A stretch of DNA of 56,228 nt, from NCBI GenBank assembly GCA_004293445.1, contig RDYP01000014.1, positions 1 to 56,228 on the forward strand. Reading direction: 5' to 3'. Within the stretch, counting starts at the first letter, position 1, and every line of letters begins with the position of its first letter. Origin of the DNA: Verrucomicrobiota bacterium. GTDB lineage: Bacteria; Verrucomicrobiota; Verrucomicrobiia; Verrucomicrobiales; Akkermansiaceae. The notes under the pieces are model-generated. The model made no database searches. It had not been told where the DNA came from and saw only the letters and a list, made by a program, of their open reading frames with translations. Both the position numbers and the translations under genes were made by a program. Positions 36,673 to 49,099 of the stretch are shown in pieces.

Positions 36673-37283
36673 GGTGTTTGCGGGGTTGGGGTTAGGTTGG
36701 TTTGGTTTCGCTTTTCCTTCCGTCGATTGCCCCGGTGGAAGAACTGGCGGGCCACGGGGCTCCAACTGCTCGCCAGCAAACTGAAAGGTGAAACGGGGCA
36801 CGGAGATTCAGTAGCTACGGCGACCCTGGCAAGCCGAAAATCCCCGATTTCAGCGACTTCCGCGATAAGAGGGACCTTGTGAGTTGATCGATTCAAAGTC
36901 CGAAACCGCCGGTCTCAGCTTGCACTTTCTCCGCTGCTCTCATGCCCGTCCTTTTGGCATGACTCTGCAATGCGCGCCAGCCAGCGACATAGTCCCCCCC
37001 ACGCGGGGCGCTGAAGGCTTCCATCGGAAAGCACTTTTGGGAAAGGGTGGGAGGATCGGTGAGACGTGGACCAGCGGGACGGTCGGTGGGGGCGACTCTG
37101 CAACGGGTATGGGAAATGACGTCGCTGAGAATCCGCGACCGGAAACCCGTATCTCTTCGCGCTCGTTTTGCTTGGTTTGGCGGTCGCCGACTCCATTTCA
37201 GAGTGACCGTCGACCGTTTTGTTGGAATGGCATTGGTGCTCGAACCGGGTTAGTTCCCCGTTCCCTCGTTGCCGCTTTTCAAA
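36673..37283. other. 611-bp intergenic region between divergent rpsA and the glycan cluster
   Basis: It contains the promoters of rpsA (minus) and of the secreted-protein cluster (plus). Several frames are open, but none shows similarity or a natural composition. I found no riboswitch, repeat or strong hairpin. Part of it is probably the long rpsA leader, which in other bacteria is used for autoregulation. Confidence 0.4.
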
Positions 37284-39677
37284 ATGATTCTTCGCTTCTT
37301 TGCCGTTTTCGCTGCCCTCGTTTGTTCACTTCATGCCGAATGGGAGGCGAGCGGACCTGTTACGATTTCTGGGACGGGCTCTGCGCTTGGACGTGTTGTG
37401 ACCCTTCAGAGCCCGGCGCCAGGGACGATGGCTGGTGCGCGTTTCGGCCCGCTCGTCATCGACCCAGCGACTCGCGATCTCAATCTTCAGGCGGAAGTCG
37501 CCAGCTCAATCCCCGGTGGCAAGGCCTTTCGCCTGACGCTCTATCTCACCCATGACTCCGTTTTCCCCGATCAGGCCCAGAGGGTTCTTGCGCGGGCCAA
37601 CCGATCGATCAAGGGCGACTCGCGCGGACGTGTCGGGCTCAATGCCTCGATTCCTCGTCACGCGATCCCTGGCAAGCCCATTCACGCCTTCATCGAACTC
37701 AGTTCGGCCGACTTGGATCGACGAGGGAGGCCCGGCCCACCTGCCGCTGGCAAGCTCGTGGTGCGGGGTATCGACCTGCTTTCGAGCAGCCTTCCCGCTG
37801 CATCGACGATCGAAGCCCGGCGCCGCTCTTTCCTTCAATTCGCGGGCCGCTCTGCCATTGCGAACGAGCTCGGTGGAATCCACACCAAGTCGACGCTTCG
37901 CATGCCCGGCCTGTTGGCGTCGATTATCGAGGTGAAGGATCCTCGGGACCCACGGCTCACCCGTTTCATGGAGGAGACCGTCCTCATCGTGAAAGCCCTG
38001 CGCGCCAACAAGAATCGAGTCGGCCCCTTCGAAATCTACTTTCCGATCGCGAATCACGTCGCGGCCAAGCGACTGCTCGGAACCCTGCTCACCAGTCATC
38101 CCGAATATCCGGCTTATGAGAAAGCGGTCTTCGATTTCCAGTGCTCCTGGCCGGATTACAAATCCAACGGGGATCACTGGCCACGCAGCCCGATCCGCGA
38201 GGCGAAGACGATTGCCGATGTGCCCGGCAATATCGACAACGGCAACTTCCGCCTGCTAGTCACTGCCGCCGGCTATCTCTCCGCCCAGACTTTCCCCCGG
38301 CTCCGCACCACCTTGGTGAATCCGAAGACCGGCGAGGCAACGGTATTCGAGCGCGAACGAATTCTGCGCGAAATGACGCTCTACCTGCGTCGGGTTTACC
38401 ATTCGATCGCCACCTGCAATACCTGGGAGTATGGCGCGCAAACCTATCTCGCCATCGACTTCGCGCCGATCCACATGATCGCCGAATATGCCGAAGATCC
38501 TGAGATCCGGCGCATCGCGGTCCAAACCCTCGACTGCCTCTACAGCAGCCTCGCCACGTCTCTCAACCAGGGCCATTACATCCATGCTGCAGGCAGATCG
38601 AAAGGCGAGTTTCTCGGAACCGGGAGCGCCATCGGTTTCATCGGCTGGCTCGCCTTCGGCAGCGACCGTCCGGGACAAGGCTCGACCACGCCCTTCAATG
38701 TTTATCCCGCCCTACCCGGTCGCTATCGCGTCCCCGATGCCATCCGACCGACTCTCCGCTTTCCTTACGCCAAACGCGAACGGATCGGCGACGGGAGCGC
38801 TTTGGTGGCGACTTACACTTGGCAAAGCCGATCCTTCGGACTGACCAATGCGATCGAGGCTCGCGCGGCGGTGCGTCGTGCCAAGGACAAGAATTGGGAC
38901 CGTGATAGTTTTTTCAAAGAAGCCGGGCGGAACAAACTCAATTGGATCGGCGAGCGACCTGGAGGCTTCAGCCCGCAGTGGGAGAATTCCCGCCAGCCCT
39001 ACGGTCGCCTGCGCGACACGCCGAACGGACGCTACTACGGAAGCAACCCTTGGTCGCAGGTCGTCCAGCATCAGGGCACCCAGATCGGCCTTGCCGACGT
39101 CCGCGACGGCTATCCTTTTCGCAAGCTCTATGTCAGCTATCCGGTCCAGCAGCTTCGGGCCCGCGTCGTAAAATCCGACTGGACTCTCTGCCACAGTGGA
39201 AGCGTCGTCTTTGCTTTCCGCTCGCTCAAGCAGCCGACGACTCCCGCAGAAAACCGATCGGGTCAGATCACCGATTACTATGATTATCGTAAAACTGCGT
39301 GGATTCTCGAAGTTGCCGAAGCTCCGAAGTCTCAGGGGCGTAAGTCGGACGCCGCCGTTGCCGAAGAGATCGAACGTTTCCACCGCACTTTGCTGCGTTC
39401 CAAGGTCGAGGTGAGCGGTTTGGACGATGCGTCCAAGGAGTCACCCGTCCTCGCCTACACTTCGCCGATCAGCGGGCGGACTCTCAAGCTTGATGCCGCC
39501 GTCTATCCGATTCCTGCTGACGGCGACGGCGTGCCACCCGTCGATTATCCGGTCCTTGCCACCGATCCCGTGGAAAAAGGCGGGCCGAGGGTTCTCCAGC
39601 AAGACCAGCGGCTGCGCTGGTTCGGCCCTCGGGGTGAAACGCTCGTGGATCACGACTTCCGGGATTGGGTTCGCTGA
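37284..39677 (+). CDS. Secreted protein of unknown family, 797 aa, possible polysaccharide-active enzyme
   Basis: The ATG at 37284 starts a signal peptide ('MILRFFAVFAALVCSLHAEW'), so the protein is exported. The N-terminal ~170 residues look like a beta-sandwich. Residues ~190-480 are helical, with Trp/Tyr/His-rich helices reminiscent of an (alpha/alpha) toroid: 'CNTWEYGAQTYLAIDFAP', 'IAEYAEDPEIRRIAVQTLDCL', 'NQGHYIHAAGRSKGEF'. The C-terminal third is again beta-rich ('LRARVVKSDWTLCHSGSVVFAF', 'QITDYYDYRKTAWILEV'). This alpha-then-beta layout is seen in many polysaccharide lyases and in GH88/105-like enzymes, but no known family motif is evident. The next two genes encode GH106-like and GH16 enzymes, so a glycan substrate is likely. 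The assignment is inference. Confidence 0.7.
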   Translation: MILRFFAVFAALVCSLHAEWEASGPVTISGTGSALGRVVTLQSPAPGTMAGARFGPLVIDPATRDLNLQAEVASSIPGGKAFRLTLYLTHDSVFPDQAQRVLARANRSIKGDSRGRVGLNASIPRHAIPGKPIHAFIELSSADLDRRGRPGPPAAGKLVVRGIDLLSSSLPAASTIEARRRSFLQFAGRSAIANELGGIHTKSTLRMPGLLASIIEVKDPRDPRLTRFMEETVLIVKALRANKNRVGPFEIYFPIANHVAAKRLLGTLLTSHPEYPAYEKAVFDFQCSWPDYKSNGDHWPRSPIREAKTIADVPGNIDNGNFRLLVTAAGYLSAQTFPRLRTTLVNPKTGEATVFERERILREMTLYLRRVYHSIATCNTWEYGAQTYLAIDFAPIHMIAEYAEDPEIRRIAVQTLDCLYSSLATSLNQGHYIHAAGRSKGEFLGTGSAIGFIGWLAFGSDRPGQGSTTPFNVYPALPGRYRVPDAIRPTLRFPYAKRERIGDGSALVATYTWQSRSFGLTNAIEARAAVRRAKDKNWDRDSFFKEAGRNKLNWIGERPGGFSPQWENSRQPYGRLRDTPNGRYYGSNPWSQVVQHQGTQIGLADVRDGYPFRKLYVSYPVQQLRARVVKSDWTLCHSGSVVFAFRSLKQPTTPAENRSGQITDYYDYRKTAWILEVAEAPKSQGRKSDAAVAEEIERFHRTLLRSKVEVSGLDDASKESPVLAYTSPISGRTLKLDAAVYPIPADGDGVPPVDYPVLATDPVEKGGPRVLQQDQRLRWFGPRGETLVDHDFRDWVR

Positions 39678-39794
39678 CGAGTTCATCGTTTCAGCGTTTT
39701 GAGCCTGCTCATGCCGATCCCGCAAATCCGCCACGTTTCTCACTTTTTCGATCAGAATGCTTTTCTTCCTCCGTCATCCCTCCTCTCTCCATCC

Positions 39795-42700
39795 ATGAAT
39801 TTTTTGTTCCGAACATGCGTCGTCCTTGCCCTGAATGCCGCGCTCGCTGCCGCCGAGTCGTCGCTTGAGGCCGATTTCCGCAATCCTCCCGTCGCCGCCC
39901 GACCCTATGTGTGGTGGCACTGGATGGGTTCGAATTTCTCGAAAGAAGGCATCACCAAGGACCTCGAGGCGATGAAGGCCGCGGGCATCGGCGGGGCCAC
40001 GATTTTCAACATCACATCCGCCGTGCAGGAATCGCACAAGCCGACCCTGGACAATCCGTGGCCCGATCAAACGTATCGCAGTCCCAAGTATTGGGACGCA
40101 ATGAGGCATGCAGCTGCCGAGGCGGGCAGGCTCGGGCTTGAACTTGGACTTCACAATACCGTCGGATACTCGACCACCGGCGGTCCGTGGATTGATCAGC
40201 AGCGGAACATGCAGCAAATCGCTTCCAAGTCGGTTCGCGTGGAAGGCGGTAAACGCGTGAGCATTGAAATCTCGCGCCCCGACCCGGTGGTGTATCGAGG
40301 CTGGGGTGCCACGGGTGCCAAGTTCGAACGCTTCGAAGACATCGCCGTTTTCGCCGTTCCCGCCGCAGGCGACATCGATCCGGCGAAGGCGATCGATCTC
40401 AGCGACTCTTTCAAGAATGGCCGGCTCGACTGGGATGCGCCCGCTGGCAGTTGGGAGCTGGTTCGCTTGTGTTCCGTGCCGACCGGCGCCAGTCCGCACC
40501 CCGTTCCGGACGAATTGGTGGGAAAGACATTGGAGGCGGACAAGATGAGCCTCGAGCAGAGTCGCTATCACTGGGACCAAGTGATCGAGCCGATGAAGCA
40601 ACATCTCGGCCCTTATCTGGGCAAGAGCTTCAAGCATTTCTTGATCGATAGCTACGAGGCCGGTCCTCAAACTTGGACGGCGTCCTTCCGCGACGAGTTC
40701 CAGCAGCGCAAGGGCTACGATCCCCTTCCTTGGTTGCTCAGCTTGCAAGGTCGGGTGGTTGGAAATGCCGCGCTGACAGCCCGCTTCAAGTGGGACCATG
40801 CCGACGTGGTTCGTGCGCTCTACTATGAGCACGGCTGGCAAACCGCAGTGAACAAAATGAAGGCGGTTGGCATGGATCTCCAGTTCGAGCCTTATGGCGG
40901 GCCCTTCGATACGGTGGAGGGTGCGGCTCTCGCCGACCTGCCGATGGGGGAATTCTGGACCAGCGGTGGCGGAGGAATCAATGGTACCGTTGTCGCCGCT
41001 TCCCGTGCTGCCGGGCGTCGCGTGGTGGGTGCCGAGGCATTCACCGGACCGCCGGCGATCAGCAAGTGGAACGAGACTCCCGGCTTTCTCAAGCGCTCTG
41101 CCGACGGAACTCTCGCGAGCGGGGCGAACCGCTTGGTCCTTCATCACTGGGTTCACCAACCTTTCGACGACCGTTACAAGCCGGGCATGGGTATGGGCTG
41201 GTGGGGCACGCACTTCAACCGCCATCAGACTTGGGCCAAGGATGGGTCCGCTTTCTTCGCATATCTCGGCCGTGTCCAAGCTCTGCTCCAGTCCGGTGAA
41301 ACGCCTTCGGACTTCGTGAGCATCGGCAAGTCACAGGGCTCGGACATCGCCTCGTGGCGTGAATTCCGCGAAGGACTCCAGGTGAAAGACGGGCGGATCT
41401 TGCTCTCTTCGGGTCGCAGTTATCCTTTCCTTGGCATCCCGCACGATGGCTTGCTTTCGCCGTCTGATCTACGACGCATCACAAGTCTGTTAGAGAGGGG
41501 TGCGGTGATCGTTTGCGCGAAACCGCGGGGCGCACCGGGTCTGGCCGGCTATCCGCAAAGTGATGCCGAGGTGAAGGCCTCGACGCTGTGGGACGGCGGG
41601 GGCGTCCGGGCTTTCGGAAAGGGCAAACTTTATACCCGTGGCGACATCGCTGCCGCCGTTCGCGATTTCAAGATTGAACCGATCGCCCGGATCAGTGGCG
41701 CGTCGGGCATCGTCACCACGGCGCGCCGCAGCGGAGGCACGACTCTTTTCTTTGTCGCCAATACCCGCGAGCAGGCCGTGTCCTTCACCGGATCTTTCCG
41801 CATCGATGGTCAGCGTCCGGAGTTGTGGGACGCGGAAGACGGATCCATCTGCCCGGCTCCCGTCTGGCGGCACAAAGATGGCCGCTGCGAGGTCGACCTG
41901 AGCCTCGGCGGGCATCGTTCCATCTTCGTAGTCTTTCGCGATGCCGCGCTGCCCGCCGATCATGTGGTATCGGTCGTGACCAAGCCCGTGGGAGAGGATG
42001 CGGTGGAAATCGTCAAGGCCCGCTTCGGTGCTGCGGAACCGCAGCGTTGGCTCAATGTGACCGACAAGTTGCGCCAACTCGCGGCTGGTGGAGGGCTCGA
42101 TGTTGCCTCGGTGTCACCCGGTGTCTTCGGTAAGGATCCTGTGCCGAATGTGATCAAAACCCTCGAAGTCGAATACGGCCTCGCTGGCAAGACCGCGACA
42201 GTGCGCGTGGTCGAAGGCAAGCCGCTGCGTCTCGGCAAGTCCCGTGCTACCGATTTCCGGCTTTTCGCTGCGGCGGACGGATCGGTCCGTGCGAGTGCCA
42301 CCGGAGCACTTTGTGCCGAGCTTGTCTTCGCATCGGGCAAGCGCCAGCCGCTGGAAATCGCTGCGCCCGCCTCTCCGGTCGAGCTCAAGGGGCCTTGGGA
42401 GGTCGCGCTTGATTCACCGGTCGCCCAACCGCGCCAGATCAAATTGTCGGCGTTGGGCGATCTCGCCAGTCATGCCGATGACGAGGTGAGATACTTTTCG
42501 GGCACTGCGACTTACCGACGTTCCTTCAAGCTCGATACCCCCCCGGCCAGTTTGCTGCTCGATCTTGGTCGGGTCCACGACCTTGCCCGTATCGTCGTCA
42601 ACGGTCGGGACCTTGGTGTTCTCTGGCAGGCCCCCTACCGCATCGACATCGGCCCCGCTCTGAAGGCTGGTTCGAACCGTTTGGAGATCGCGGTGACCAA

Positions 42701-42953
42701 TACCTGGCACAATCGCTTGGTGGGCGATGAGCAGCGGCCGGCGGATTTCGAGTGGGGTGAAGATCGGGGAGACCGGGGCCGTGCGATGAAAGCGTATCCA
42801 GCGTGGTTCCTGAAGAATCAGCCGCGCCCCGAGTCCGGCCGGAAGTGTTTCGTCGTCTGGTATTATCACCGCAAGGATAGCAAGCTCCTGCCCGCCGGGC
42901 TCCTCGGTCCGGTTCGTTTGCTTCCTGTTGCGACTGATACCACTAGAGAATGA
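39795..42953 (+). CDS. GH106-like alpha-L-rhamnosidase, secreted
   Basis: This 1052-residue protein has a signal peptide ('FLFRTCVVLALNAALAAAES'). The N-terminal catalytic barrel shows the GH106-type opening 'RPYVWWHWMGSNFSKEGITKDLEAMKAAGIGGATIF', quoted here in part as YVWWHWMGSN and DLEAMKAAGIGG. 'ELGLHNTVGYSTTGGPWI', 'FLIDSYEAGPQTWT' and 'GAEAFTGPP' follow. The C-terminus carries beta-sandwich domains ending in a galactose-binding-like module ('LLLDLGRVHDLARIVVNGRDLGVLW'). GH106 enzymes release L-rhamnose from pectins such as rhamnogalacturonan II or from ulvan-type polymers. I choose the ATG at 39795; an upstream start would bury the signal peptide. It is part of a three-gene secreted cluster. 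Confidence 0.85.
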   Translation: MNFLFRTCVVLALNAALAAAESSLEADFRNPPVAARPYVWWHWMGSNFSKEGITKDLEAMKAAGIGGATIFNITSAVQESHKPTLDNPWPDQTYRSPKYWDAMRHAAAEAGRLGLELGLHNTVGYSTTGGPWIDQQRNMQQIASKSVRVEGGKRVSIEISRPDPVVYRGWGATGAKFERFEDIAVFAVPAAGDIDPAKAIDLSDSFKNGRLDWDAPAGSWELVRLCSVPTGASPHPVPDELVGKTLEADKMSLEQSRYHWDQVIEPMKQHLGPYLGKSFKHFLIDSYEAGPQTWTASFRDEFQQRKGYDPLPWLLSLQGRVVGNAALTARFKWDHADVVRALYYEHGWQTAVNKMKAVGMDLQFEPYGGPFDTVEGAALADLPMGEFWTSGGGGINGTVVAASRAAGRRVVGAEAFTGPPAISKWNETPGFLKRSADGTLASGANRLVLHHWVHQPFDDRYKPGMGMGWWGTHFNRHQTWAKDGSAFFAYLGRVQALLQSGETPSDFVSIGKSQGSDIASWREFREGLQVKDGRILLSSGRSYPFLGIPHDGLLSPSDLRRITSLLERGAVIVCAKPRGAPGLAGYPQSDAEVKASTLWDGGGVRAFGKGKLYTRGDIAAAVRDFKIEPIARISGASGIVTTARRSGGTTLFFVANTREQAVSFTGSFRIDGQRPELWDAEDGSICPAPVWRHKDGRCEVDLSLGGHRSIFVVFRDAALPADHVVSVVTKPVGEDAVEIVKARFGAAEPQRWLNVTDKLRQLAAGGGLDVASVSPGVFGKDPVPNVIKTLEVEYGLAGKTATVRVVEGKPLRLGKSRATDFRLFAAADGSVRASATGALCAELVFASGKRQPLEIAAPASPVELKGPWEVALDSPVAQPRQIKLSALGDLASHADDEVRYFSGTATYRRSFKLDTPPASLLLDLGRVHDLARIVVNGRDLGVLWQAPYRIDIGPALKAGSNRLEIAVTNTWHNRLVGDEQRPADFEWGEDRGDRGRAMKAYPAWFLKNQPRPESGRKCFVVWYYHRKDSKLLPAGLLGPVRLLPVATDTTRE

Positions 42954-43048
42954 GCGCGGGGTCGGTGGCTTAACGTAAAAGTCAATTTTCTGATCGCGAA
43001 AGACTGTCCGCTCTTATCGCGTTTCTCCTCGGTCTGGATGATTCCGCC

Positions 43049-44299
43049 ATGAAGCTAGCCTGTTCCCTTTCCTCGATCCTCGCCCTTGCGATGGCTACCC
43101 TCTCATCCGCTGCCGAGCCTTCCATCCTGCCCGGCGGAAAGGATCGCTGGACTTTGGTGTGGCAGGACGAGTTCGACTACCCCGACGCCAAGCTCGACGA
43201 GCAGTGGGAGTCGCAGAACGGGCCGAGCGGCCACATCCTTTGCAGCCGCTGGCGGGAGAATGCGAAGGTGGCGGACGGGACGCTCAAGCTGATCAATCGC
43301 AAGGAGAAGCGAGGCGGCCAGGATTGGACCTCCGGTAGCATCCTGACGCGCAGGACTTTTCAATATGGATACTTCGAGTGCCGCTACCGCTATGCTGCGG
43401 CCGAGGGTACCAACAATTCATTCTGGTTGATGACCCGCGGTCCGAGACCGAAGACCGGCAAGTCCTTCGAGATCGATATCAACGAGGGCCACTATCCGAA
43501 CAAGGTGAATACGAACATCCACAACTGGTCGGACATCAAGGTGGTCGATGGTCGCAAAACTCATCCCTCGTCGTCGCGTAGTTTCCCATTCGGCACGCGG
43601 CCGGACGTGACCATTCAGTTGGAGATCCCGGTAACCGCCAAGCGGGTGCGCTTCAGCTCCCGGCATCCCGGCCACTTCCACCTTGGCGAGTTTCGCTTGT
43701 ACGCGCCAAACGCCGCTGGTTTTCCGAGGGCCCTCTCTCCGACGGCTGACCGAGACAAGCCCGGTCTTGTGAATTTCGCTCGCGATCCCGGCACCCGTGT
43801 CACCGTGAATGGACATTTTGACAAGGACGGAGCGCAGAGACTCAAGCACCTGATCGACGGCAAACCGGAGACGACTTGGATCACCCGGCGGGATGGGGTG
43901 AAGAGCGTCGAGTTCGAGTTCGATCGCGAACGGACCGTCGGCTGCGTCCAGTTTCTCAATGGCTGGAAAAATCGTGGCCATTGGCAGGGGCTCGCTTCGG
44001 AGTATCGGTTGGAATATCACGATGGCCGCCGTTGGGTGGAAATGTCCGCCTTCGATCTCAAGGACGGTACTGTCGACTTTGCCCGCGACTTCCATACCTA
44101 CGGGCTGGAATGGACGCCGAAGGAACTCGTCTTCTACGTCGACGGCGAGGTGCTGCGCCGCGAAAAGAACGAGTTCTGCCACAGCCCGTCGCCGGTTTGG
44201 TTGAGTCTCGCGATCATCAAGTGGGCGGGGAAGATCAGTGATGCGATCGATGGCACTTTCATGGAAGTCGACCACGTCCGCGTCTATCAGGCTCGTTGA
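43049..44299 (+). CDS. GH16 endoglycanase with a discoidin-like domain inserted in the catalytic fold
   Basis: This 416-residue secreted enzyme has signal peptide residues 1-21. The GH16 beta-jelly-roll starts at 'WTLVWQDEFDYPDAKLDEQW'. The catalytic motif is 'FEIDINEGH' (Glu141 nucleophile, Asp143, Glu146 acid/base, the ExDxxE type). After 'VNTNIHNW' the fold is interrupted at ~185-335 by an F5/8C-like segment ('HLGEFRLYAPN', 'LKHLIDGKPETTWITR', 'YRLEYHDGRRWVEM'). GH16 resumes with 'DFHTYGLEWTPKELVFYVDGEVL' and 'GTFMEVDHVRVYQ'. GH16 enzymes cut beta-1,3/1,4-glucans, agar, porphyran or carrageenan; the substrate is not clear here. It is the last gene of the cluster. Confidence 0.88.
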   Translation: MKLACSLSSILALAMATLSSAAEPSILPGGKDRWTLVWQDEFDYPDAKLDEQWESQNGPSGHILCSRWRENAKVADGTLKLINRKEKRGGQDWTSGSILTRRTFQYGYFECRYRYAAAEGTNNSFWLMTRGPRPKTGKSFEIDINEGHYPNKVNTNIHNWSDIKVVDGRKTHPSSSRSFPFGTRPDVTIQLEIPVTAKRVRFSSRHPGHFHLGEFRLYAPNAAGFPRALSPTADRDKPGLVNFARDPGTRVTVNGHFDKDGAQRLKHLIDGKPETTWITRRDGVKSVEFEFDRERTVGCVQFLNGWKNRGHWQGLASEYRLEYHDGRRWVEMSAFDLKDGTVDFARDFHTYGLEWTPKELVFYVDGEVLRREKNEFCHSPSPVWLSLAIIKWAGKISDAIDGTFMEVDHVRVYQAR

Positions 44300-44343
44300 T
44301 GGCTTTGGATTCCCTGTTAGGGATCGCCTCGATTTTCATCGGA

Positions 44344-44790
44344 TCATGGCCTTGATTCCGATTTCTCCTCGAGGATGCGCCATTCCCCATCGGTGTCGGG
44401 TCCCACCATGATCGTCACGGGACTCTGATACTTCTTCAGAGTGGAAAATCGGTTTGCCGTGATGGTGACATTGGGAGCTGCCTCCAGATAGTTGACTTCA
44501 GAATACGTGCTGGTGTCGCCCCGGGCTTTGGCGAGCGGCATGACCTTTCGGAGCAGCGATTTGTATTCTTTTGGGTCCAGCTTCAGCGCTTGCTTTCTCC
44601 CGTCCGGATAAACCCGAGTGTTCTCGATCTTCGCCTTGTCTGAATAAAGCGCTGCAAGATCTGGATCAAAATTTTTCGCGAGCGTCGTGTATTCGGCGAA
44701 CAGCTTCTTTGCTCTATCGATGCTCTCCGCGGCTGATGCGAATGCGGTCGCGATGAAAGTCGTGATCAATGCGACAAGTAGTGTTTTCAT
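44344..44790 (-). CDS. Exported hypothetical protein, 148 aa (possibly NTF2/SnoaL-like)
   Basis: The ATG at 44790 gives a clear signal peptide ('MKTLLVALITTFIATAFASA') and a mature protein of about 128 residues. It contains 'KLFAEYTTLAKNFDPDLAALY' and a beta-rich second half ('NVTITANRFSTLKKYQSP', 'VGPDTDGEWRILEEKSES'). The pattern of an N-terminal helix, 'ALY' and a long curved sheet ending in W-R-I resembles NTF2/SnoaL-like proteins. No catalytic residues can be named. It converges on the GH16 gene and is transcribed away from the ISL3 element that lies just upstream of it. Confidence 0.7.
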   Translation of the reverse strand: MKTLLVALITTFIATAFASAAESIDRAKKLFAEYTTLAKNFDPDLAALYSDKAKIENTRVYPDGRKQALKLDPKEYKSLLRKVMPLAKARGDTSTYSEVNYLEAAPNVTITANRFSTLKKYQSPVTIMVGPDTDGEWRILEEKSESRP

Positions 44791-44966: not shown

Positions 44967-46146
44967 GTGAAAACCTTCAACCTCAAAGCCTTGTTCGAGT
45001 TCGCCGGATGTGTCGTGGAGAAGATTCTCGTCGAGACGATCTGAGTGCAAGTCTCGGGCGTATCAAGTCACATTGCCCCCATTGCCAAGTAGCCCTCAAG
45101 GAAGTCCGTGAGGGAGAGATCGCCGTCTATGATCTGCCGCTTGGCGATAGGGCGGCGGTGTGGGTCAAGCTGCCAGTTGTTCAAGGCCGTTGCCCGAAGT
45201 GCTGGGAACTGTGCACGCCGCGGCCGCCCGAGGTTCACCCGACTCGCAACGCCACCTGGCGATTAATGCGCGCGGTGGCCGCGTGGGCGTTGCAAGCAAC
45301 GTCGCGGCCATGTTCGACATCGGTGAGTCCACCGTGCGCCGCTACGAGACCGACGTGCTCGAAGCCGAACTTCCCGAGCCGGATCTGGGCAACCTCGAAG
45401 TCCTGCTTGTCGACGAGAAGTCGGTCCGCAAAGGCCACGGCTACGTCACCGTCGTGCTCAACGGCCGCACCGGGGAACTGCTCCACATGGCGGAGGGCAA
45501 AAAGAAGGAAAGCCTCGAAAGCTTCTTCGCGACACTCAGCGACCTTCAGAAGGCCTCGATCCTGGCCGTCTGCATCGACCTCAACGGCGCGTACCACAGC
45601 GTGCTTGCAGAGCAGATCCCCAAGGCGGAGGTCGTCCACGACCGCTTCCACATCATCGCCAACCTCAACGCCGCCATCGACGAGGTGAGGCGCAGCGAAT
45701 GGCGCTCGGCAGAGGCCGAAGGCAAGAAAGTCATCAAAGGCTCGCGCTACCTGCTGATGATGGGCCATGAGAATCTCGATGACGCCGGCATTGAGCGATT
45801 GCGCGAGCTCACCCGCCTCAACGCAAAGCTTTCGGCAAGCTACCTCCTCAAGGAGGAGTTCCGCCTGATTTACAGCACGACGCTGAGCATGGATTGGGCG
45901 CGGAAAAGAATGCGGCAATGGTGCACCACGGTCGAGGCCTCAGGCATCGCTCTACTGATCCAATTCGCCAAAGGCCTGCTGCGGGACCTGCCGGCTGTGA
46001 CTGCATTCTTCAAACACCGGATCACTTCTGGACGGATCGAGGCCTTCAACAACCAGATCGCCCGGCTGATCCACCGGGCCTGCGGCATGACTAACCTTAA
46101 ACATCTTTTCCTCAAAATGCGGGCTCAATCACTCAAGCAAATCTGA
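44967..46146 (+). pseudogene. ISL3-family transposase, frameshifted
   Basis: The reading frame starts with a GTG at 44967 (KTFNLKALFEFAGCVVEKIL, a typical ISL3 N-terminus) but stops at a TGA near 45042. It continues in a second frame with the zinc-ribbon region ('CPHCQVALKEV', 'GRCPKCWELCTPRP', 'TRNATWRLMRAVAAWALQ'). Near 45293 it changes to a third frame for the HTH and DDE domain ('SNVAAMFDIGESTVRRYE', 'VLLVDEKSVRKGHGY', 'AVCIDLNGAYHSVL', 'VVHDRFHII', 'TSGRIEAFNNQIARLIHRACG'). At least two frameshifts are thus needed and no classical slippery heptamer is visible at either. The catalytic core from 45298 on is uninterrupted. The copy is probably inactive unless provided in trans. Confidence 0.88.
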
Positions 46147-46263: not shown

Positions 46264-47997
46264 TCAGACCTTTCTACGGCGATAAAAACCGCCGGTGGTC
46301 ACCACCGCGTCCACCCGGTCATCAAGTAGCGCACGGGCGCATTCGTCTGGTGAATTGATAATGGGTTCCTCGTGCACGTTGAAGCTGGTGTTGACTAGCA
46401 CCGGAATTCCAGTACGCGCATGGTAGGCTTTGAGTATATCATAGTATAGGGGATTTTCTTCACGGCGGATCAACTGCGGGCGGGCAGTGCCGTCGACGTG
46501 GACCACGGCGGGAATGCGAGATTTCCACGGATCCTTGACCTGGCATGTGATGGTCATAAAGCGAGAGGTATTGCGACTTTGCGGAGGAAGGTCTAGCACT
46601 TCATCGGCGTGTTCTTCGAGCAAAACGGGAGCGAAAGGCATGAACTCGCTGCGGTCCATACGAGCGTTGAGCGAGTCGTTGATATTGCCATTGACCGTAG
46701 CCGCGAGAACGGTGCGGGCACCGAGCGCACGCGGGCCGAACTCCATGCGGCCGGTATAGATTGCCACCGCATCCCCAGCGAGGATAGCATCCACTGCCAC
46801 TTCTACCGGACTTTCCGAGACCTTCTGAATGGCATGAAGCGTGGCGAAATGGTCGTCGACCAAACCGGTATAATCTCGGCCGAGGTAGAGATCGCGGAGT
46901 GGCCGGCGCTGGCCCAGCCAAGTCTCCATGCCATCGCGTTCCATCAGATACTGATAGACGCCGCCAAAGGCGATGCCTTGGTCGCTCATGGGTGGGACGA
47001 CGAAGATGCTGTCGAAAAGCCCAGAATCGGCAAGTACTTGGTTGAGCCGAACATTAGCAAAAAGTCCGCCGGATATCCCGAGGTTCCGGGACGGGCAGTG
47101 GCGGGCGAGTTTGGCGATCGATTCAAGAGTCACCTGCTCGACCAGTTTCTGGACGGAGGCGGAGACGTCCTCCTTGGTAGAATCCCTGGCGATGCGGAAG
47201 ATTAGCTCGCGGAGTTGCTGGTGGGTGCCGGATTTCGAGGTGATGCGACCACGGTCATCGACATTAAACCAGCTCCGGAGTTCATCGAAATGCCTAGCTT
47301 CGCCGCGTGCGGCAAGTCCGGTGAGTTTGCCTTCGTGGCGGTTGATCTTGTAGCCCAGCGCGAGGGTGGCGAAGCCGTAGGCAAGGGCGAGGCTAGAGCC
47401 TTCGAAATCGCAGCCGATATCCTCGTCCCCGCCGAAGAGAGTCTCCAGATGGCCATCGTGAAACCAGCGGTGGCTGTAGAAGCCGGTTTCCGCGCCACCA
47501 TCGGCCGAGTAGAGCAGAGCGTCCTGCCAGTCCGGATTGTGGAACAAAGCAGGCAGCACGTGGCCTTGGTGGTGGTCATAGAAGGTGACCTTAGCATCCG
47601 GATTGAAGCCATGATCGACCAAAAAATCCCCGGAGCGGAAGAATTTCGAGGCATCGGTGATCCCGCGGATGCTGATTTCCTTCGCGACACCGACTCCGCG
47701 ATTGCTGCCGGATATTGACTCGATCCCGCGGCGCAGGCGATGTAAGAGAGGGGCCCCGTGGCCGTCGAAGTAGCGGGTGGGAAATCGCGAGCGACTAAGG
47801 GCGAGGACATCAATGTCCTTGCGCGAGACACCACCGATCGTGAGGGCTTCATTAACGGCTTCATCGGGAAAACGACCGCCTTCGGATTTGATCCGGGTGA
47901 TGCGCTCGAGTGGGATGGCGGCGATAATGTCATAATCGCGGAACAGGCAGGCAGAAGCATCGTGGCCGCTAATACAGACTCCGAGGATGAAGCTCAT
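46264..47997 (-). CDS. NodU/CmcH-family carbamoyltransferase
   Basis: This 577-residue enzyme transfers a carbamoyl group from carbamoyl phosphate, via carbamoyl-AMP, to a hydroxyl of a sugar or antibiotic. The N-terminal Kae1-like domain has 'GVCISGHDASACLFRDYDI', 'DHHQGHVLPALFHNPDW', 'LYSADGGAETGFYSHRWF' and 'GYKINRHEGKLTGLAARG'. The C-terminal YrdC-like domain contains 'GRMEFGPRALGARTVLA' and 'VLVNTSFNVHEEPII'. I start it at the ATG at 47997 (MSFILGVCI). In bacteria, close relatives decorate capsule, O-antigen or Nod factors. No glycan-synthesis genes adjoin it. It stands alone between an ISL3 and an IS5 element, a sign of transfer or of a decayed gene cluster. Confidence 0.92.
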   Translation of the reverse strand: MSFILGVCISGHDASACLFRDYDIIAAIPLERITRIKSEGGRFPDEAVNEALTIGGVSRKDIDVLALSRSRFPTRYFDGHGAPLLHRLRRGIESISGSNRGVGVAKEISIRGITDASKFFRSGDFLVDHGFNPDAKVTFYDHHQGHVLPALFHNPDWQDALLYSADGGAETGFYSHRWFHDGHLETLFGGDEDIGCDFEGSSLALAYGFATLALGYKINRHEGKLTGLAARGEARHFDELRSWFNVDDRGRITSKSGTHQQLRELIFRIARDSTKEDVSASVQKLVEQVTLESIAKLARHCPSRNLGISGGLFANVRLNQVLADSGLFDSIFVVPPMSDQGIAFGGVYQYLMERDGMETWLGQRRPLRDLYLGRDYTGLVDDHFATLHAIQKVSESPVEVAVDAILAGDAVAIYTGRMEFGPRALGARTVLAATVNGNINDSLNARMDRSEFMPFAPVLLEEHADEVLDLPPQSRNTSRFMTITCQVKDPWKSRIPAVVHVDGTARPQLIRREENPLYYDILKAYHARTGIPVLVNTSFNVHEEPIINSPDECARALLDDRVDAVVTTGGFYRRRKV

Positions 47998-48250
47998 TGG
48001 TTGGGAAAAGGGCTGGAGAGTAGCTGCAGCTTGCAGCAAGGACTATACAGAGACTCTGCGAAGGAGTCCGGAGCTTGGCAAGCATGCGAATCCAAACGAT
48101 GCGAGCATCGCCCCGGGCGGGGTAGAATTGCTAAGACATTCCGGCGGTGATGCTTTTGCCGGGTCATAGTCCGCGACAACGGCCGCCATCCATTACCAGA
48201 GGTCTGTGCGTGTTGGTTTTGAACCGTTCGTAACCTTACCGGAAGACTTG

Positions 48251-48254: not shown

Positions 48255-49099
48255 AAGCGGTTTCAAAAGTCGGAACTCGGACTGGTGCTATTCGGAGGGA
48301 TGCCTATGAACGGAAAGCGTGAGCAACGAGTTTATGACCAGACCCGGTCTGGAAGCGGATTCATCCCTTGGTTCCGGATGCCAACACCTTCGGAAGTTCG
48401 CGCTGCGTCGACTGCGACGTCTTTTAAGGCATCTTCTGGGTGCTCAAGACCGATGCCGGTGGAGGGATCTGTCCAAGCAAATTCCTAGCCCATCGATCGG
48501 TTGGAGACGCTGGCGCAACTGAGAAGAGGACGGCGACTGGGACGCGGTGCGGCGCGACTTTATCAGCCGACTCGACGCCGTCGGCGTTCTCGACTGAGAG
48601 CAATGTTTCATGGACGGCAGCTTCGCGCTGACCAAAAAAGGGGGCTCTGCGTCGGAACAACCAAGAAGGGCAAAGGAGCAAAGTGGATGGTGGTGGCGGA
48701 CGGCAAGGGCCTTCCTGTGGGAGACACCCTCTACTCGGCATCGCTCGCGGAGGTGACGCCGGCTATTCCGACGCTGGCCGATTGCAAGCCGAGGACCGAA
48801 CGCTTCCCGCACCGCTTGATCGCTGACCGGGCCTACGATGCCGATTCGCTGCGGCACCTGATGCACCACGTCGACGACGAGTTGATCAGCCTACACCGGT
48901 GCAGCCGCAAACGCGCGTCGCTCGAGGATGGCATGGCGTTGCGCCGCTACAAGCATCGCTTGAAGGTCGATCGTCTCGTCGCTTGGCTCGGCTTGTGACG
49001 GCGCCTGCTCGTCCGTCACGAGTGGCAGATCGATCTCTACGCCGGCTTCTTCAAGCTGGCTTAGATCATTATCCTCATCAGACACTTTTGAAACCACTT
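48255..49099 (+). mobile_element. IS5-family insertion sequence, decayed
   Basis: This ~845-bp element is bounded by 16-bp inverted repeats, GAAGCGGTTTCAAAAGT-like at 48255 and its complement ending at 49099 (one mismatch, C/T). CTAG duplications lie outside at 48251-48254 and 49100-49103. Length, termini and the broken DDE transposase inside fit the IS5 family (IS427-like size). Confidence 0.85.
48319..49064 (+). pseudogene. IS5-family transposase, multiply interrupted
   Basis: The recognisable order is 'CRWRDLSKQ', then 'WRRWRN', 'DWDAVRRDFISRLDAVG', 'FMDGSFALTKKGG' (first DDE acid) in one frame. A frameshift near 48650 follows, then 'VGTTKKGKGAKWMVVADGKG', 'RLIADRAYDADSLRHL', 'RRYKHRLKVDRLVAWLG' and 'RRLLVRHEWQIDLYAGFFKLA'. 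In-frame TGA codons follow WRRWRN, VLD and WLGL, at least two of them probably former Trp codons. Active IS5 transposases have no such breaks, so this copy is dead. Confidence 0.85.

Follow-up and report, generated by a model that had tools for sequence, protein, structure and literature searches.

The stretch of DNA analysed here (the window; 56,228 nucleotides of contig RDYP01000014.1, from a Verrucomicrobiota bacterium placed in the Akkermansiaceae) carries, at positions 37284–39677 of the forward strand, an open reading frame (ORF) of 797 codons without a stop. Searches with the translated protein returned nothing from Pfam or NCBIfam (E up to 1) or from the sequences of the Protein Data Bank (PDB; E up to 10). 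Since the gene stands directly ahead of two predicted glycoside hydrolase (GH) genes, the locus raises the question as to what this protein does, and whether it represents a new polysaccharide-active family, as the original prediction had it. We find that it belongs to a sequence family with members in at least four phyla, and we put at roughly two in three the probability that this is a new sequence family of secreted polysaccharide lyases (PL) with the toroid fold of PL8, PL12, PL17, PL33 and PL35. The novelty lies in the sequence family; the kind of enzyme is a known one, and the best-supported activity of the family is a predicted beta-elimination.

Extent of the family and its predicted fold

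Scanning a collection of one genome per species (84,980 species) with two motif patterns returned 85 stretches, 43 of which encode relatives of the window protein. By record title these 43 loci divide into 22 from Verrucomicrobiota, 12 from Bacteroidota, 6 from Planctomycetota, 1 from Bacillota (Paenibacillus) and 2 unassigned; two of them (L049 and L050) come from one metagenome-assembled genome (MAG), and some are the same contigs as in a separate search of 97 genomes, mostly of the window's genus, family and order. In that search family matches were found in 9 of the 97 genomes (own genome included), or in 11 with a profile. Named members include Bacteroides cellulosilyticus, B. nordii, B. 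stercorirosoris, Coprobacter secundus and a Dysgonomonas. The part common to the family is about 600 residues long and corresponds to about 178–797 of the window protein. Alignment A2 comprises the window protein and members from 34 of the 43 loci, with L024, L027, L029, L040, L041, L043, L044, L050 and L055 left out; alignment A3 draws on 39 of the 43 loci and also takes in the window protein, four distant proteins and two tandem copies, and for the tree three cut-off A3 rows were left out and three rows of other origin added.

After trimming of parts outside the family domain, for example an SGNH domain from L025 and C-terminal stretches from L028, scans of the 35 members in A2 against Pfam (E up to 1) and NCBIfam gave only type IX secretion tails and weak scattered matches, the NCBIfam ones being single weak matches (e.g. 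E 0.003) that we take as chance. Profiles from A1, A2 and A3 found no lyase among all PDB sequences (E up to 10), which include entries of PL8, 12, 15, 17, 21, 23, 35, 38 and 39 (table in PMC12088678) as well as of PL33. The only PDB rows in these sequence searches were a haemoglobin chain (E 1.3) and a 77-residue protein (E 0.086–0.17), again taken as chance. The earlier statement that no known CAZyme could be matched is supported as far as Pfam, NCBIfam and the PDB sequences go, none of which gave a confident match, and the outcome that had been named as refuting the prediction did not turn up. The proposal of a new polysaccharide-active family holds as regards the lack of a curated-family match, but the protein is not the lone orphan that was implied.

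The window protein can be divided as follows.

37284–37337, forward strand: putative signal peptide, residues 1–18 (MILRFFAVFAALVCSLHA), signal-peptide-like as judged by inspection; helix 2–21 in the model
37341–37808, forward strand: orphan N-terminal region, residues 20–175, without counterpart in the aligned relatives
37815–38723, forward strand: alpha-toroid domain, about residues 178–480, from models and alignment; invariant Asn321, Asn379, Glu382, Tyr388, Gly430, Arg438 and Lys440
38751–39674, forward strand: antiparallel beta-sandwich domain, about residues 490–797; invariant Asn568, Asn581, Tyr585, Asn588, His637 and Trp673, among others

The predicted model of the window protein (mean predicted local distance difference test score, pLDDT, 72) consists mostly of helices at 172–472 and mostly of strands at 495–791. 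The same order, an alpha-toroid followed by a beta-sandwich, is seen in the model of a relative, L013, which was built with 46 sequences and has a pLDDT of 93.6 and a predicted template-modelling score (pTM) of 0.91. When the L013 model was compared with the PDB by Foldseek, 11 matches were obtained at E<=0.001 (best 7.4e-7), by title chondroitinases, heparinase III, GAGases and human dermatan sulfate epimerase 1, and the next match is a GH81 at E 1.9e-3. For the window model there are 14 PDB matches at E<=0.001, all of them lyases (PL33, PL35, PL17, PL12 and PL8); some of these family numbers are from the table in PMC12088678 and others are those that we take the matched entries to have. VIA-align 2, a second look at Foldseek's own list, gives Z scores of up to 13.1 for the window model and, for the L013 model against heparinase III, a Z of 12.4 over 405 residues with a root-mean-square deviation of 6.6. 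Among the 365 rows with Z>=2 for the L013 model, the best 50 are made up of lyases and the dermatan sulfate epimerase. The arrangement of the toroid lyases, an (alpha/alpha)n toroid and then an antiparallel beta-sandwich, is thus found in the predicted models and in the fold searches, and the alpha-toroid, the C-terminal beta region and the likeness to several lyase families that had been read from the sequence are borne out by both models. The beta domain that had been proposed at the N-terminus (about 20–175) could not be confirmed: most of it has a pLDDT <50, the best match outside its own gene among the 97 genomes has E 0.0055, and the matches at E<=0.1 in 13 of the 97 genomes (own genome counted) are taken to include no convincing relative.

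The two-domain fold of PL12 and PL35 (heparinase III, GAGases II and VII) is matched by both models and that of PL33 (BT4410) by the window model only; PL33 tops the Foldseek list for the window model and is not among the best 50 of 365 for the L013 model. PL8 (chondroitin AC, hyaluronate and xanthan lyases) is alike in fold, for example with Z 10.4 over 455 residues for the hyaluronate lyase of S. pneumoniae, but its His-Tyr pair was not recognised by eye in the family and there is no sequence match to the PDB chains.

Candidate active site and proposed mechanism

In toroid lyases the catalytic set is an Asn that acts as neutraliser, a Tyr about 53–57 residues further on and a His of the beta domain, namely N238, Y291 and H444 in PL33 (PMC11848413) and N192, Y246 and H401 in PL35 and N240, Y294 and H424 in PL12 (PMC12088678). 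The candidate counterparts in the window protein are the following.

38418–38420, forward strand: codon of Asn379, which is the same in all 35 aligned members and is proposed, by analogy with PL33 N238 and PL35 N192, to neutralise the carboxylate
38577–38579, forward strand: codon of Tyr432, proposed acid/base, 53 residues past Asn379
39192–39194, forward strand: codon of His637, found in all 35 aligned members and proposed to assist the tyrosine

The Asn379–Tyr432 spacing of 53 equals that of N238–Y291 in PL33 and is close to the 54 of PL35 and PL12. A Tyr at column 431 or 432 is present in 39 of the 41 main-family rows with letters there; L015 and L038 have Leu-His. The candidate residues that the family would have in common with PL33, PL35 and PL12 are the invariant Asn, the Tyr 53 residues on (in the window protein) and an invariant beta-domain His; it differs from them in the absence of profile-level sequence similarity, in having its Tyr at one of two columns, in an invariant Arg438 and Lys440 and in a longer spacing to the His.

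Altogether 27 columns do not vary among the 35 aligned members, of which the window protein is one. Those kept in the window protein comprise N321, N379, E382, Y388, G430, R438, K440, N568, N581, Y585, N588 and H637. Among the acids of the toroid, Glu382 alone is invariant in all 35, while Asp342 is present in the 34 others and not in the window protein.

By analogy with these families, the protein would be a secreted lyase that binds a uronic-acid-containing polysaccharide between the toroid and the beta domain. Asn379 may neutralise the carboxylate of the uronate, and the tyrosine of loop 431–432 (Tyr432 here) would abstract the proton at C5 and donate one to the departing sugar, presumably helped by one of two invariant beta-domain residues, His637 or Tyr585. 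Binding of the acidic chain could fall to Arg438 and Lys440. Cleavage would leave a 4,5-unsaturated uronic acid on the product, to be removed by GH88-type hydrolases in the Bacteroidota relatives, and the GH106 and GH16 products of the window might trim the same rhamnose-containing acidic glycan. The family, its conservation, the predicted fold and the gene neighbourhoods come directly from the computation; the lyase chemistry, the roles of the residues, the substrate and the activity of this divergent copy are deduced from them.

Gene partners of the family and alternative explanations

GH88 enzymes are the usual partners of lyases, removing the unsaturated uronate that lyases make. A GH88 gene recognised by Pfam lies 2 base pairs (bp) upstream of the family gene in L036 and about 150 bp downstream of it in L048, and in L052 and L053 such genes are on the same strand with one and two genes between. 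GH88 is therefore present in 4 of the 11 Bacteroidota loci tested, against 0.54 expected (P 0.0013); the twelfth, L050, shares its MAG with L049 and was left out. In B. cellulosilyticus and B. stercorirosoris a GH88 gene is found about 16 kilobases (kb) from the family gene, beyond the stretch that was counted. These partner genes fit a lyase function and are the strongest functional hint; the removal of unsaturated uronate by GH88 is stated for a chondroitin locus (PMC9067506). The search of the 97 genomes gives no sign that the family requires GH88 somewhere in the genome: besides the window's own genome, those with a long match to the family divide into G005, G010, G038 and G047 without GH88 and G007, G029 and G076 with it.

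The remaining neighbours vary from locus to locus. Counts over the 43 loci with single query proteins at E<=1e-8, which are lower bounds, put SusD-like genes in at least 7 of 43 loci, GH95-like genes in at least 6 (two of those from one MAG) and GH29-like genes in at least 4; GH106 was found in the window and in L018, GH2 and GH39 in single loci, genes of the sulfatase-modifying-factor type in L036 and L052, and Pel9A-like beta-helix genes in L015 and L038. These neighbours would fit a substrate that is acidic, perhaps sulfated, and contains rhamnose or fucose. Proteins of 587–813 residues are encoded beside the Bacteroidota lyase-like genes at L052:7587-9374, L045:16446-18884 and L053:7191-8951; none has a catalytic Pfam match, that of L053 matching a secretion tail only.

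Several observations weigh against the assignment as a lyase. The fold matches have low template-modelling scores (TM-scores) by query length, 0.20–0.42 for the 11 matches of L013 and 0.20–0.31 for the 14 of the window protein, so that the fold relation to lyases is distant, and VIA-align 2 warns that Z scores under about 13 can reflect a common arrangement in helical models. Profile comparison by hhalign gives no sequence-level link to a lyase: the probability does not exceed 0.3% for 10 clusters that cover 32 PF07940 proteins and is 0.8% for a presumed PL37 set (below). The loop tyrosine shifts between columns, with 2 of 41 rows lacking a Tyr at 431–432 altogether, and the spacing from Asn379 to His637 is 258 compared with 184–219 in the families tabled (PMC11848413, PMC12088678), a range into which Tyr585, at 206, fits better. 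The GH88 test assumes an even spread of genes, yet such genes cluster in glycan loci; the neighbour search of the 43 loci found no GH88 outside Bacteroidota, and, while 37 of the 97 relatives of the window have a GH88 match above cut-off, its own genome has only one below it (18.8 bits), at a place where an ORF is without a Pfam match. Finally, 35 columns show a single residue throughout the other 34 members, and the window protein differs at 8 of them (W337F, D342T, W427L, Y518F, R571Q, E587S, P618S and G623Q), compared with at most one departure in any other member; its end branch is 3.68 changes per column long where the median is 0.36, and its place in the tree is unsure. Its identity to the other 34 rows is 21–31% over the alignment, and the highest identity in the 97-genome search is 38%, over the last 257 residues. 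Judged from these alignments, it is the most divergent main-family copy seen among the sequences compared.

Could the protein be a lyase that CAZy already lists, in a family without a Pfam model or a solved structure? This is compatible with lyase function and, in our estimate, fairly unlikely. The best argument for it is PL37, whose founder Cdf79930 of Formosa agariphila has 622 residues with an incomplete toroid and a beta-sandwich and acts on ulvan (PMC6168547). PL37 resembles the family in length, secretion, architecture and the possession of Bacteroides homologues, and its substrate is a rhamnose-uronate polymer like that proposed here (PMC6168547). PL37 homologues are reported from a Bacteroides heparin locus (PMC6168547; PMC9067506, strain WH2), and in B. 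cellulosilyticus DSM 14838 the sole ORF of 600–640 residues in a 35-kb stretch at the presumed heparin locus, itself taken from heparinase-type genes, encodes P0002 (L098:11836-13731, reverse strand, 632 residues). P0002 has no Pfam or PDB match and, to judge from its locus, is probably PL37. Neither P0002 nor ten homologues match the family in either direction, which speaks against identity with PL37 in so far as P0002, named from its surroundings, is a PL37 protein. The family profile likewise matches no PDB lyase chain; B. cellulosilyticus has the family member L045 and yet is reported to be without PL29 (PMC9067506); and searches of the literature on new PL families and on these organisms turned up no description of the family. 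Heparinase II/III-type enzymes (PF07940; PL12/15/17/21) were also considered and rejected, as no such Pfam match was present in the 35 members (E up to 1).

A glycoside hydrolase on a toroid scaffold could be expected from the hydrolase genes next door, and the toroid hydrolases GH81, GH146 and GH95 do appear lower in the fold list of L013, but all matches at E<=0.001 are lyases or an epimerase and the GH88 partner genes agree with a lyase. An inverting hydrolase generally requires two acids. The toroid offers a single invariant one, Glu382, Asp342 being lost in the window protein, and we regard a hydrolase as quite improbable. Human dermatan sulfate epimerase 1 ranks fourth by fold for the L013 model (E 5.7e-6), and the window copy has lost W337 and W427, two Trp that all 34 other members retain, which would suit a protein that uses the lyase fold for binding or as a uronate C5-epimerase; the GH88 partners and the SusC/D-type loci nevertheless point to depolymerisation in the relatives, and the polar columns invariant in all 35 include active-site candidates, making this reading very improbable indeed. 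Another explanation accepts that the family are lyases and holds that the window copy is degenerating or has changed its role. Its eight departures, very long branch and want of a close relative speak for it, and a transposase gene of the ISL3 family is found 0.9 kb downstream of the GH16 gene. On the other side, the frame of 797 codons is intact, GC at the third codon position (0.70) is like that of the next two genes (0.70 and 0.76), and the copy keeps every polar residue from N321 to H637 listed above as retained, so that we consider degeneration or a change of role distinctly unlikely. The likelihoods given for these explanations and for a new lyase family overlap and do not sum to one.

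If the family is indeed a new one of toroid lyases, the fold group of heparinases, alginate lyases and human dermatan sulfate epimerase would gain a branch. A bolder form of this reading is tentative, with the odds somewhat against it: an undescribed lyase family, present in human-gut Bacteroides and other Bacteroidota as well as in Verrucomicrobiota, Planctomycetota and Bacillota, whose active site is re-arranged (invariant toroid Asn, Arg and Lys, a base Tyr at one of two positions and a beta-domain motif of the YGEN type) and whose substrate is a methyl-pentose-rich (rhamnose or fucose) uronate polysaccharide without a known lyase. The window protein would then be a fast-evolving branch of it that has moved to a new substrate. 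Lyases determine which acidic polysaccharides a microbe can open. As neither Pfam nor NCBIfam has a model, a likely degradation step goes unnoticed when Verrucomicrobiota, Planctomycetota and gut Bacteroides are annotated with these libraries, and the question as to which acidic glycan these loci dismantle becomes testable.

Surroundings of the gene, further copies and a distant group

Downstream of the 797-codon gene, and all on the forward strand, follow first an ORF with a GH106 domain and then one with a GH16 domain, in the order originally noted.

39795–42953, forward strand: GH106 (alpha-L-rhamnosidase family) gene, Pfam PF17132 at E 2.2e-135; the start is an internal ATG of an ORF that opens at 39699
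43049–44299, forward strand: GH16 gene, Pfam PF00722 at E 1.9e-18

The GH16 protein also has a match to the F5/8-type C (discoidin) domain PF00754 (E 1.6e-5; 25.4 bits, below the cut-off of 28.2). This discoidin-like stretch, residues 264–334, lies between GH16 matches at the start and at 341–397 and is apparently a nested domain. Upstream of the 797-codon gene is a divergent gene with S1 RNA-binding domains (Pfam). Co-transcription of the three forward-strand genes is inferred from shared strand and spacing alone, and scans of 36700–44500 for promoter and terminator patterns stayed at chance level. The window protein may act on the same rhamnose-containing glycan as the GH106 and GH16 products. 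In L018 a GH106-type gene follows the family gene, with a GH16 gene about 9 kb upstream, so that one other locus lends the shared substrate weak backing. Past the GH16 gene lie the ISL3-family transposase gene (45160–46146, forward strand), an adjoining carbamoyltransferase gene with N- and C-terminal domains recognised by Pfam (46264–48039, reverse strand) and a short ORF (48501–48998) that is transposase-like by eye and has no Pfam match. Plasmid, phage and viral-contig searches found nothing.

The genome of the window, which has no match to the heparinase II/III model, encodes a second full-length family copy at C1:162323-164107, adjoining a gene for an esterase-like alpha/beta-hydrolase and a gene with a pectate-lyase-like domain. 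Some members carry additional parts: the L025 protein has an extra N-terminal SGNH-hydrolase-like part, as read from its sequence, and this part matches L018, which has a GDSL-lipase gene; the Paenibacillus member has additional CBM_X2 and CBM96 domains.

The family profile also detects, at 43–133 bits, a second and distant group (L054:3580-5379, L047:13218-15314, L047:4238-6472, L016:12871-14670, L009, L095:1252-3177 and part of a protein of 3821 residues). None of the distant-group proteins scanned has a Pfam match. Glu382 and Arg438 are kept in the four aligned distant rows and in L095. The four aligned rows have a Gly in place of Asn379 and lack the YGEN motif, and the active site of this group is therefore probably a different one. 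Of 119 genomes of the genus Bacteroides, 12 have a weak distant-group match and 4 a main-family match, and in two of these a GH88 gene lies within about 5 kb. The 3821-residue ORF is in the genome of the window (C28; L136:1753-13218, forward strand), with the distant lyase-like domain at residues 85–610 followed by laminin-G-like, PKD and autotransporter-type (PATR) repeats. Three relatives have similarly long ORFs (3571–3822 residues) with part matches.

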